Shown here in pieces: positions 30,454 to 33,700 of a stretch of DNA of 64,000 bases (its first letter is position 1; each line of letters opens with the position of its first letter). Location of the stretch: NCBI GenBank assembly GCA_023957835.1, contig JAMLGP010000001.1, forward strand, positions 551,575 to 615,574, read 5' to 3'. The notes below the pieces were generated by a model, which saw nothing but the letters and a program-made list of their open reading frames with translations, ran no database searches and was not told where the DNA came from. Position numbers and translations under genes: made by a program. The stretch comes from Homoserinimonas sp. (GTDB lineage Bacteria > Actinomycetota > Actinomycetes > Actinomycetales > Microbacteriaceae).

Positions 30454-30651
30454 TCAAATCAACCCCTGGTCGAGCATTGCATTTGCAACTCTCAGGAATG
30501 CCGCTGAGTTCGCTCCGACAACGTAGTCTCCTGGGTGCTCGTAGCGTTCAGCCGCCTGCAAAGCCGCCGAGTGGATGTCGACCATTATCGACCCCCTTGG
30601 AGGGAATCGCTCGACCTTATCCAGACACTCGGTTCGGGAAAGGGTAGGCAT
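30454..30651 (-). pseudogene. Detached copy of the glutamate dehydrogenase C-terminus
   Basis: The last 45 residues of this 65-codon frame differ from the end of gdhA (32351-33700) at two positions only. The preceding 20 codons are unrelated. Within the 130-base matching segment nine of ten differences from gdhA are synonymous. An ATG with GGAAAG upstream could give a 65-residue product, but it would be a dehydrogenase fragment without a catalytic part. It marks one edge of the islet between this copy and gdhA. Confidence 0.85.
30463..30592 (-). repeat. gdhA-tail direct repeat, detached copy
   Basis: 130 bases aligned without gaps to 32360-32489, with ten mismatches. The mismatches cluster toward the gene's 3' end; the last 61 bases, up to ATTATCGAC, contain just one mismatch. 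Similarity ends abruptly on both sides. Confidence 0.9.
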
Positions 30652-30688
30652 TATCGTCTTTCCGATTTACTCTCTTAGGAGGCCAACA

Positions 30689-30745
30689 ATGAGTCGGCTG
30701 AACGAGTTCCCCCAATCGGAGTGCCCTTTCGTCGGTTCCAGTTAG
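30689..30745 (+). CDS. Possible 18-residue peptide ORF
   Basis: AGGAGG stands six bases before ATG 30689, an unusually good ribosome-binding site for so short a frame (MSRLNEFPQSECPFVGSS, then TAG). It lies between the detached gdhA tail and the inhibitor-like gene. It could be a leader peptide, a remnant of a deleted gene or chance. Confidence 0.25.
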   Translation: MSRLNEFPQSECPFVGSS

Positions 30746-30781
30746 GCCAACAAGTTTCAACTAGGAAGGGACGGTGCAGGG

Positions 30782-31297
30782 ATGTATTCAATCTCAACTC
30801 TCGAGACGGCGAATGTTCCACGGGTTCGATCTCATTGGATTAGCACATCCCGCCAAGAGCGACTATCGAGTCTTAGCCAAGTCCTCTTATTCGTAAGTGC
30901 TGTAACGCTGCTAGTTCTGACTTCGGGGACTGCGGCACTCGGGGCCGCATATGACGGTAACTGTGACTCCGACGAAGTGTGTGTATATAACACAGCGGGG
31001 TATAGCGCGCCCTATTCTGATCTGCCAGCGAACTATCCCGACATGAGTGGCTGGCCTGCCATCCATACCTATAATGTCCCGGATGTGTGTAATAGCCCCC
31101 TTGCCCTGACTTACCCACTAGTCACCTGGTGTCAGTTGAATGACACCATTAGCTCTGTCAAGAATCTCTCATATAGTCGTGATCTCCGTATTTACACCAA
31201 CGCCAACTACACGGGTTCTAGCCAATTCATTGGGACACGAACCTTCGTCAGCCAAGTTACATACAACGATCAAACAAGCTCGTTGAAGTGGTTCTGA
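30782..31297 (+). CDS. Exported peptidase inhibitor I36-like protein
   Basis: 171 residues. A long N-terminal extension and a hydrophobic signal segment (VLLFVSAVTLLVLTSGTAAL) precede the mature part. The mature domain starts YDGNCDSDEVCVYN and has NDTISSVKNLSYS and LRIYTNANYTGSSQFIG, the beta-crystallin-like pattern of family I36 inhibitors of secreted metalloproteases (SMPI type). Four cysteines would form disulfides outside the cell. Its target is unknown. It overlaps the open frame of the next gene and sits within the gdhA-tail islet. Base use is poorer in G and C than in the core around it. Confidence 0.72.
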   Translation: MYSISTLETANVPRVRSHWISTSRQERLSSLSQVLLFVSAVTLLVLTSGTAALGAAYDGNCDSDEVCVYNTAGYSAPYSDLPANYPDMSGWPAIHTYNVPDVCNSPLALTYPLVTWCQLNDTISSVKNLSYSRDLRIYTNANYTGSSQFIGTRTFVSQVTYNDQTSSLKWF

Positions 31298-31308
31298 GAG
31301 GTGTGACC

Positions 31309-32280
31309 ATGTTGACGAATAATAAGAAGAAGATAATTGCGGTATTGGCCGGTCTCGGCGTCGCTGTTCTATGCACGGGCGTCCTTTCGGCAGCCACGTT
31401 CTCACCCAAGTTGGTCGGGTTCAATGATGAGCCGAACCTAACGGCTATCCCGACGATCACAACTCCAGGCGATATCAGGCTTCCTCTGGACACGTATCTT
31501 CCTACTGCTGAAGCAATCCGAACCATGCAGCATGGCGTCTACGAAGCAGTAGCCAATTGCATGACGGGATTTGGTCTCGACTTCGAAGTTCAGCCCGTCT
31601 GGTACCAGACGGTATCGATGTTCCCTGTAGACGGCAGCGAGTTCACAAACGCAGGGCTTTACGGCCTGCTCGATGCAGAACACGCGGTGCATGACGGCTA
31701 CCACGCGGGCCCCACGACAGTGGAAGGGGTTGAGTCAGCCCGTCGACAGGCCGAGGAAGAGGCGGAGTCGTGGCAGAACCTTCCCGACGATTACCTGAAC
31801 GTGCTGGGTGCGGAGTCTGGCGGCGGTACCTATGCCGGCAAAGCGATCCCCCAGGGCGGCTGCTTTCAGGCAGGTAAGCTCCAAGTTGAGGGATCGGGGA
31901 TCGAACTCCTTCGGCTCTATGAGGAGATCAGTTCACAGTCCTGGACGTCGGCATCCCAGGACAGCAGGGTGCATTCTGTGTTCGCGGCATGGAGTGAGTG
32001 CATGGCGCGCGCAGGCTATTCATACCAGTCGCCGTGGGAGGCAAACGACGATCGCCGCTGGGGTACGGCAACCGTATCGCAATTGGAGATCGAAACAGCA
32101 GTCGCCGACGTAAATTGCAAAATGCAGACCAATCTCGCAGGTATCTACTCGGCCGTTCAAAGCGCCTATGAGCGCAGGCTCATCGAAGAGCATGCCGGGG
32201 AGCTCAATTCCGCAGTGAACAGTTTCCAACGTGCGGTCGAGAGAGCCGAGGCAATACTTTCTGCAAACGCGAACAGGTGA
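31309..32280 (+). CDS. Exported protein of unknown function
   Basis: About 323 residues from ATG 31309, with GAGAGGTG upstream; the frame opens at 31288 inside the previous gene. An N-terminal signal segment follows three Lys (KKKIIAVLAGLGVAVLCTGVLSAAT); a typical lipobox is not clear. The rest is soluble, with CMTGFGLDFEVQPVWY, a middle GGCFQAGKL, and WSECMARAGYSYQSPWEA near the C-terminus followed by a helical tail. I recall similar proteins from Streptomyces and relatives as conserved hypothetical secreted proteins. It is the second gene of the islet, just after the inhibitor-like gene, so the two are probably co-transcribed. Confidence 0.7.
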   Translation: MLTNNKKKIIAVLAGLGVAVLCTGVLSAATFSPKLVGFNDEPNLTAIPTITTPGDIRLPLDTYLPTAEAIRTMQHGVYEAVANCMTGFGLDFEVQPVWYQTVSMFPVDGSEFTNAGLYGLLDAEHAVHDGYHAGPTTVEGVESARRQAEEEAESWQNLPDDYLNVLGAESGGGTYAGKAIPQGGCFQAGKLQVEGSGIELLRLYEEISSQSWTSASQDSRVHSVFAAWSECMARAGYSYQSPWEANDDRRWGTATVSQLEIETAVADVNCKMQTNLAGIYSAVQSAYERRLIEEHAGELNSAVNSFQRAVERAEAILSANANR

Positions 32281-32350
32281 TTCCGCTTGTGGATGCTGCA
32301 GAGGACTTGTCCTGTAGCTAATAGCGACCGCTACTGGAGAAGAACCATCG

Positions 32351-33700
32351 CTACACGAGCCCCTGGTCGAGCATTGCACTTGCGACCCTCAGGAATGCCG
32401 CGGAGTTCGCCCCAACTACATAGTCTCCGGGGTGCTCGTAGCGTTCAGCCGCCTGCAACGCCGCCGAGTGGATGTCGACCATTATCGACTTGAGCCTCGC
32501 TTCGCTCTTTTCAAAACTCCAGTGTTCTCGAGCGGCGTTCTGGGCCATCTCGAGCGCCGAGACGGCGACTCCGCCTGCATTTGCGGCCTTGCCGGGAGCG
32601 AACAGCACCTTCGCTTGGCGAAATAGTTCGACCGCATCCGGAGTGCAGGACATATTCGAGCCCTCGGCCACTGCGATGACGCCGTTTTTTACAAGGGCGG
32701 CCGCATCGTCTGGTCCTAGCTCGTTTTGGGTCGCTGCGGGAATTGCGATCTGGCCGGGTACCTCCCATACCCGCCCGGAAGCGACGAATCTTGCTCCGGG
32801 TCGACGATTGGCGTAGGCAGAAATCCTCTCCCGGCTTCGCTCCTTGACTTCCTTCAGCAATTCGAGATCTATTCCCTGCTCGTCGATTACGAATCCGGTC
32901 GAGTCGGAAGCGGTAATTGGTCTGGCCCCAAGCTGCTGCAGCTTCTCGATGGCGTAGATCGCAACATTTCCTGATCCGGAGATTATTGCGGTCTTGCCTT
33001 CGAGCCTTTCTGAGCGTGTCGAAAGCATCTCCTGCATGAAGAAGACTGCACCATAACCCGTGGCTTCTGTTCTGACCTCTGCTCCGCCCCAGCCGAGTCC
33101 TTTTCCAGTGAGAACTCCGGTTTCGTGGCGATTCGTGATTCGGCGGTACTGGCCGAACAAATAGCCGATCTCACGGCCGCCGACTCCAATGTCGCCGGCA
33201 GGGACATCCGTATCTGCGCCAATGTGACGGTAGAGCTCGGTCATGAACGACTGGCAAAATCGCATGATTTCGGCATCCGATCGCCCGTGTGGATCGAAAT
33301 CGCTTCCTCCTTTAGCCCCACCGATTCCCTGACCGGTAAGGGCGTTCTTGAAGGTCTGTTCAAAGCCCAGAAACTTCATGATGCTCAGATTCACGCTCGG
33401 ATGGAAGCGCAAGCCTCCCTTGAAGGGGCCGAGCGCGGAATTGAACTGGACCCTGAACCCTCGATTGACCACAACCCTGCCGGAGTCGTCGACCCAGGGG
33501 ACGCGGAACATGATTTGCCGCTCCGGCTCCACGAGCCGCTCGAGAACCCCGGAATCCGCAAATTCGGGATGGGCGACCAGCACCGGTCCGAGCGATTCGA
33601 GCACTTCGTGAAGCGCCTGATGGAACTCGGGCTCTCCGGGATTTCGCTCAACGGTTCGGGTGAACAGGTCTTCAATTAGGTCGGTGGCGGAAGAGGTCAT
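32351..33700 (-). CDS. gdhA: NADP-type glutamate dehydrogenase
   Basis: 449 residues, the usual length of hexameric bacterial enzymes. Substrate motifs are [21 protein letters not shown] (part), the catalytic region [16 protein letters not shown] and [29 protein letters not shown] is the nucleotide-binding turn. It makes glutamate from 2-oxoglutarate and ammonium with NADPH. Its last 43 codons are duplicated at 30463-30592. It neighbours panB and the glutamine synthetase genes, a nitrogen-assimilation neighbourhood. Confidence 0.95.
32360..32489 (-). repeat. gdhA-tail direct repeat, copy inside intact gdhA
   Basis: The partner of 30463-30592, in the same orientation. It lies wholly inside the coding sequence of gdhA, from the serine codon of SIMVDIH to the DQG codons near the end. 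Confidence 0.9.

Follow-up and report, generated by a model that had tools for sequence, protein, structure and literature searches.

How does a glutamate dehydrogenase gene that is itself intact come to be followed by a second copy of its own 3′ end, with a small islet of genes lying between the two? We asked this of gdhA in a 64,000-nucleotide stretch of the genome of Homoserinimonas sp. (hereafter the window), which comprises positions 551575-615574 of a single-contig genome of 2.07 Mb and which we compared first within the genus, in a sample of eight genomes made up of the source genome (G000) and seven congeners. We favour, at a probability of about 0.5, the reading that the resident gdhA tail was displaced by imported DNA that entered by a homologous route. 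The features on which the argument turns are these, with ORF standing for open reading frame and aa for amino acids.

30235-30420, plus strand: conserved ORF of 61 aa, resident downstream neighbour of gdhA
30454-30592, minus strand: detached gdhA tail, containing repeat copy 30463-30592, with its own stop codon TGA, at the resident position
30577-30592: second copy of the 16 bases of GTCGACCATTATCGAC, at the edge of the detached tail (read directly and found in the core search)
30593-32350: islet between the tails, 1.76 kb, G+C 54.6%
30782-31297, plus strand: I36 peptidase-inhibitor-like protein, 171 aa (PF03995, E 7.3e-7, above cut-off)
31309-32280, plus strand: protein of 323 aa, function unassigned, no Pfam match, alternative GTG start at 31288
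32351-32489, minus strand: attached gdhA tail, containing repeat copy 32360-32489, next to the islet and not to the syntenic neighbour
32351-33700, minus strand: intact gdhA from the ORF list, encoding a 449-aa glutamate dehydrogenase (PF00208, E 2e-82; PF02812, E 2e-50)
32474-32489: GTCGACCATTATCGAC, gene-internal edge of the repeat, with 5-base inverted arms and a 6-base spacer

The two tails contain direct copies of 130 nucleotides at a spacing of 1897, which align without gaps at 92.3% identity (self-blastn E 1.7e-48); direct comparison and self-blastn both recover the ten mismatches reported in a preliminary description of this locus that was made from the letters alone. Counted from the gene-internal edge, the mismatches lie at positions 31, 61, 70, 73, 76, 79, 88, 103, 106 and 111. 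Nine are synonymous and the tenth is a Ser/Asn difference, again as first described, and at a neutral synonymous fraction of 0.242 (about 24%) the probability of at least nine synonymous changes in ten is 2e-5. The likeness extends past the 130 nucleotides by two further codons (CTC/TTG, Leu/Leu; GTG/ATT, Val/Ile) and ends after the stop codons, which differ (TAG/TGA), the detached tail comprising the last 46 codons of the gene. Because dN between the tails is 0.035 and dS is 0.43 (Nei-Gojobori counts, 45 codons), both appear to have diverged while each served as a working gdhA end, and the earlier proposal that selection acted on the two ends in separate lineages gains support. The first thirty bases at the gene-internal edge are identical in both tails and divergence then runs up to the stop codon. 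A gathering of mismatches toward the gene end had also been described; it holds to the extent that the gene-internal patch has a single mismatch, but the effect is modest (permutation p 0.02-0.03) and the patch measures 60 bases, not 61.

Two similar direct copies in one genome might also be left by an old tandem duplication of the gdhA tail followed by vertical descent. We regard this as very improbable, as both synteny and the synonymous bias disfavour it: a dead copy would not keep nine of ten changes synonymous, and the detached tail and the I36 gene were not found in the seven congeners. It had been suggested that the same two genes and the same detached tail, if present in sister species, would favour a single old duplication; the I36 gene has a match in one of the eight genus genomes, which is this genome, and in none of the seven congeners.

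The resident site and the source of the second tail

Which of the two tails was there first is suggested by the 61-aa ORF, whose surroundings were followed by tblastn synteny in G006, G004, G003, G001, G013, G005, G007 and G002, with G013 being a genome from another genus. The detached tail lies 33 bases from this ORF, and in relatives without the islet the gap between gdhA and the ORF is 50 (G006), -4 (G003) and 74 (G013) bases. Since the gdhA end adjoins the 61-aa ORF where there is no islet, the detached tail marks the resident site, and the attached tail, 32351-32489, would be the one supplied by incoming DNA. Two congeners complicate this simple picture, in that a 280-aa ORF lies between gdhA and the 61-aa ORF in G004 and panB lies there in G001, with gdhA beyond it. 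A gdhA of the same type (at least 76% identity) is found in five of the eight genus genomes (the source genome, G006, G004, G003 and G001); in G005, G007 and G002 there is no full-length gdhA match and the 61-aa ORF adjoins panB. Gene content at this locus is thus variable among the congeners, with gdhA itself present or absent over the interval that corresponds to window positions 30420-33868. We also note that a complete class A RNase P RNA gene lies at 29002-29378, two genes from the detached tail (Rfam RF00010, 305 bits).

The variable presence of gdhA, with no full-length match in three congeners and a position beyond panB in a fourth, would also suit a history in which a whole second gdhA was gained together with the islet, or arose by duplication, after which the resident one was cut down to its last 46 codons. 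We think this unlikely, given that, at the sensitivity used, the islet has no gdhA-like sequence upstream of the tail and that an extra deletion would be needed, at this locus and again at a second one, paaZ, which is described below.

Beyond the genus, a gdhA-type tail is present in 135 of 398 genomes of the family, and no detached tail was found in any of them other than the source genome, the seven congeners included, in a search that scored at most 17 first-look candidates per genome and that very diverged tails could escape. The only second match besides that of the source genome is in G202, where it is weak and lies inside a 505-aa frame. Together with the direct adjacency of gdhA and its resident neighbour in G006, G003 and G013, this too goes against a single old duplication. 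At the level of the order, 257 of 396 genomes have a gdhA-type tail and second matches besides the source genome occur in G556 and G747; no good second tail was found in the 15 and 19.5 kb round gdhA in these two, the place of the second match not being listed. In the family genome G369 (C5:441113-441250) a gdhA tail occurs in a 171-aa open frame only, possibly a broken gdhA. Matches to the gdhA tail also occur in 180 plasmid records (the 20 listed are annotated gdhA) and in 15 phage records, and one viral contig (L122) has a gdhA tail at its edge.

The divergence of the two tails may say something about the donor. Between the source genome and the seven congeners, dS in gdhA, glnA, panB and the ROK gene is at least 1.5 or saturated, with the exception of ROK against G006 (1.3). 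The tail dS of 0.43 is far below these values, and we infer that the donor of the second tail belonged to this species or to a very near relative that is not among the genomes sampled. Comparison with the congeners gave no indication as to which of the two tails is nearer to the sister genes.

The islet has a G+C content of 54.6% against 61.0% for the window and is absent from the relatives examined; no blastn match to it was found in the other loci with which it was compared. Its content is as previously described in that the I36 domain is confirmed and both cargo proteins are probably exported, judging from their first residues. The lack of an integrase, also described before, holds for the two main ORFs in Pfam searches, which did not take in the smaller ORFs of the islet. 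For the 323-aa protein no usable structure model was obtained (predicted local distance difference test score, pLDDT, 36). Its relatives are scattered: six of 120 family genomes have a match, this genome at 100% and the other five at 24-35% (27% in G105), and in none of these five is the match beside a listed gdhA. A further 29 plasmid records match, all below 60% identity and 23 of them from Streptomyces, and phage records gave no match. Five plasmids of Streptomyces or Kitasatospora were examined, and in four of them the relative follows an ORF of 148-180 aa in the same direction; none of these ORFs has an I36 match, so the pairing of the I36 and 323-aa proteins is not established as a conserved unit.

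Crossover core and integrases

The identity of the thirty bases at the gene-internal edge, followed by a diverged tail up to the stop, is also what a site-specific element would leave if an integrase had recombined a core at that edge and the element had brought its own gdhA tail, the islet being either a remnant of it that lost its integrase or a passenger moved in trans in the manner of a cis-mobilizable element (CIME). The 5-base inverted repeat at the edge and the low G+C of the islet suit this explanation, as does the make-up of the mismatches, which resembles that of the prophage e14 in icd (12 single-nucleotide polymorphisms, SNPs, 10 of them synonymous, in the accessible part of PMC4759930). 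We consider it a possible but somewhat doubtful account.

The preliminary description had placed an integrase crossover at ATTATCGAC, and this we could not support: the two main islet ORFs are not integrases, the core is not reused and no copy of it lies at the edges of the paaZ islet (within 3 mismatches). GTCGACCATTATCGAC is a possible, unproven crossover core as far as its sequence goes. The 20-base core occurs exactly only at both gdhA copies, with nothing further within 2 mismatches, and recurs elsewhere only at 3 mismatches, at G000:C1:491722 and 1730481. The first of these lies inside the 161-aa ORF of the paaZ islet, not at an edge, and encodes the same Ser-Ile-Met-Val codons; we take it as coincidence. 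The second (L124) has no repeat around it. Of the earlier proposal of an integrating element with its own tail, the part that stands is that one tail apparently came with the islet, and the part that does not is the integrase crossover at a fixed core.

It had also been proposed that integrases be sought next to gdhA tails. In 75 loci, most with flanks of 1.5 kb, no integrase adjoins gdhA. The loci come from 51 genomes with gdhA and from three congeners that lack it, some genomes contributing several; the control search recovered 20 of 20 and was mostly circular, as 18 of the 20 had gone into the model. A real integrase does occur beyond glnE in G001 and G003, where the two matches lie 6.4 and 7.0 kb from the tail of gdhA. 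No report of gdhA as an integration site was found in the literature, mainly its freely readable part, which is weak evidence. Against a site-specific element we further count the absence of any other detached gdhA tail among the 398 family genomes, and the fact that the paaZ islet would require another element that had likewise lost its integrase.

An integrase does occur in the window, about 10 kb from the islet, as part of an apparent integrative and conjugative element (ICE).

42114 to at least 50408: ICE-like element with a helix-turn-helix (HTH) ORF, tyrosine integrase, DprA, SSB and type IV coupling protein; left border at about 42114
42544-43866: tyrosine integrase of the ICE-like element, a 93% relative of the G003/G001 integrase, above the Pfam cut-off as a protein

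This integrase could act in trans on the islet, which would favour a site-specific origin, and the element might equally have supplied linked transfer of islet DNA, as ICEs can carry linked chromosomal DNA (PMC5704250, accessible part). The likeness between its border at 42114 and the four islet edges is no greater than for shuffled sequence, which speaks against the site-specific account, and no right-end repeat of the element was found. As the element could help either route and has a border that does not resemble the islet edges, the odds between the two routes are left unchanged. A genome search with PF00589 gave three other matches in the source genome, with the integrase at 42544-43866 not among them; one further integrase of the source genome (359 aa; L077:6845-9486) lies beside an Mrr-type nuclease ORF and near an ORF with a dprA domain.

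Relatives of the ICE-like element point to recent movement between species. In G001 and G003 the integrase is a 460-aa frame that is 100% identical in both, and over 3310 bases the surrounding block is 99.9% identical; over 7663 bases, up to where one contig ends, its identity is 98%, whereas neighbouring protein genes of the two genomes differ by 20-28%. A near-identical block in a diverged neighbourhood shows movement of DNA between congeners at this locus. In G003 the block begins 11 bases past the stop of a glnE-like gene (named by inference). In the window, two ORFs of 383 and 539 aa with lipoprotein-like starts and no Pfam match lie between glnE and the element (39174-42047), and these are missing at the corresponding place in G003. 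Elsewhere in the window, self-comparison shows two palindromes, both near-perfect, one of 31 bases at 58636-58666 and one of 29 bases at 55836-55864.

A second tail scar at paaZ

The core search led by chance to a second tail-bounded islet, about 90 kb from that at gdhA (G000:C1:482000-501000, L123). Here the gene concerned is paaZ-like, with aldehyde dehydrogenase and MaoC domains, and a second copy of about 299 bases from its 3′ part lies 1.1 kb downstream, at 75.6% identity (L123:9094-9392 and 10193-10490); the repeat ends 18 bases before the stop of the gene, and at about that position the relic, too, has a stop. The islet holds a 161-aa ORF without a Pfam match and has a G+C content of 52.9%, against 59.9% for the stretch. 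Compared with seven sister genes, the attached tail is 75-84% identical and the relic 67-71%, and no second paaZ tail was seen in seven congeners. The relic contains an in-frame stop, and its reading frame is shifted; this is what decay of a dead copy looks like, and is one more point against an old tandem duplication of the gdhA tail. An orphan 3′ end downstream of an intact gene, with new genes between, is thus present at both gdhA and paaZ. The tails differ in length (46 codons at gdhA, about 100 at paaZ) and share no core; in two events only, different genes, different tail lengths and the lack of a shared core fit a general route. As a separate observation, G005 is 90% identical to the source genome at tetR, 78% at paaH and only 83% at paaZ (L200 against L123), while paaZ of five other congeners is at 84-86% and that of G004 at 69%, which could reflect a mosaic at paaZ in G005.

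Such scars are rare in the 44% of the genome that was compared. The scan covered 916,003 bases and 857 ORFs (800 kb systematically, together with the window, L123, L124 and L077), and the gdhA and paaZ scars were the only ones to stand out; neither lies in the systematic stretches. Other repeats (L133, L139, L144, L145, L146, L149 with 652 aa, L154 and L156) were set aside as paralogs that match over most of the protein, and two are ambiguous: L134 (28%, C-terminal part) and L149 (336 aa, target cut by the end of the stretch). Short internal repeats occur in L128, L147, L153, L159, L163 and others, and a 69-base repeat in L154. In 416,001 bases (347 ORFs) of the sister genome G006 there was one orphan tail match (L184), which was dropped on reading as an antisense frame.

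Route of displacement and known systems

We propose that the incoming DNA carried a gdhA 3′ part and then two cargo genes, that its source was this species or one very near to it, and that it recombined by homology within gdhA, so that gdhA would now end in the tail of the newcomer and be followed by its downstream genes. The other end would have rejoined inside the resident gdhA, through one crossover if the intermediate was circular, or else through an illegitimate join. The resident tail would then have remained as a relic further downstream, still next to its former neighbour. Such a history would need no integrase carried by an element, and the DNA might have entered as free molecules taken up by the cell or through transfer linked to the ICE-like element, 10 kb from the islet. 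We find this homologous route somewhat likelier than a site-specific element, a modest lean that rests on the lack of an integrase in the main islet ORFs, the core that is not reused, the different border of the nearby element and the paaZ scar. The break point differs between the gdhA and paaZ events, as the displacement model expects, two events being all there are.

Several points weigh against displacement by the homologous route. No donor in which the two cargo genes lie behind gdhA was found, and scans of the genome contigs, with a 21-base pattern and at the protein level, gave no match. Uptake and conjugation are candidate ways of entry only; comEC (PF03772), present in all eight genomes of the genus, was found in 10 of 14 controls as well, among them E. 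coli, and carries little weight. The paaZ resident neighbour is not established, with the gap between paaZ and tetR ranging from 28 to about 3,600 bases in six congeners, and the 800 kb of systematic stretches gave no further case, so the process is not frequent. To these we add the inverted repeat at the gene-internal edge, the integrase 10 kb from the islet, and the near precedent for gene-end integration given by icd::e14 in what is accessible of that report (PMC4759930).

Tail displacement without an element-borne integrase may, we suggest tentatively, be a general way in this lineage of adding small cassettes behind housekeeping genes, perhaps fed by the neighbouring ICE; its basis is the fresh scar at gdhA and the decayed one at paaZ, both in a single genome of 2.07 Mb. 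The gdhA case is ordinary in kind, and what is unusual is the metabolic gene, the main islet ORFs without an integrase and the older case nearby. A displaced tail is a readable scar: from it one can tell the point at which foreign DNA entered, the end that was resident and, roughly, the closeness of the donor. Should the homologous route be true, scars behind housekeeping genes could be counted as additive gene gain that leaves no trace of an integrase or transposase; if the integrase route is true, gdhA would be a tail-replacement site like icd.

In E. coli K-12, icdC is presumably the resident tail of icd. As at icd::e14, a housekeeping dehydrogenase has acquired what appears to be a foreign working tail, a second tail lies beyond the insert, and a repeat running from an in-gene core to the stop, with mostly synonymous changes, is found at gdhA. 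The difference is that e14, in the portion of PMC4759930 available, is a prophage that excises via 11-bp direct repeats, whereas the gdhA islet is 1.76 kb with two cargo ORFs; the element-borne integrase of icd::e14 has no counterpart in the two main islet ORFs, and the nearest, 10 kb off, is another element's. A CIME is bounded by repeats and lacks recombination genes (PMC5704250, accessible part). The gdhA islet is likewise bounded by repeats and its main ORFs lack recombination genes, its repeats being only candidate att sites, but the ICE-like element 10 kb away departs from the CIME pattern in having a left border different from the islet edges.

The minimal mobile element of Neisseria helps to exchange gene cassettes (PMC2649163, seen in part). 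Our locus resembles it in that content between conserved genes varies (gdhA present or absent, the 280-aa ORF of G004, the islet). A displaced tail is not known to be part of that system. In the accessible text of the reports concerned, tips of Rhs loci are displaced by single crossovers with circular intermediates (PMC2935791), and at type VI secretion system (T6SS) loci homology-facilitated illegitimate recombination has been described (PMC5361080; PMC2884548). Rhs tips and T6SS orphan immunity arrays are alike with gdhA in that recombination within a gene gives a new 3′ end with its genes and shunts the old end downstream; they differ in that their new end is a non-homologous effector part, whereas that of gdhA, a metabolic gene, is an ortholog of the old one. 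If the route proposed here is general, a process that has been argued for effector loci would extend to ordinary metabolic genes.

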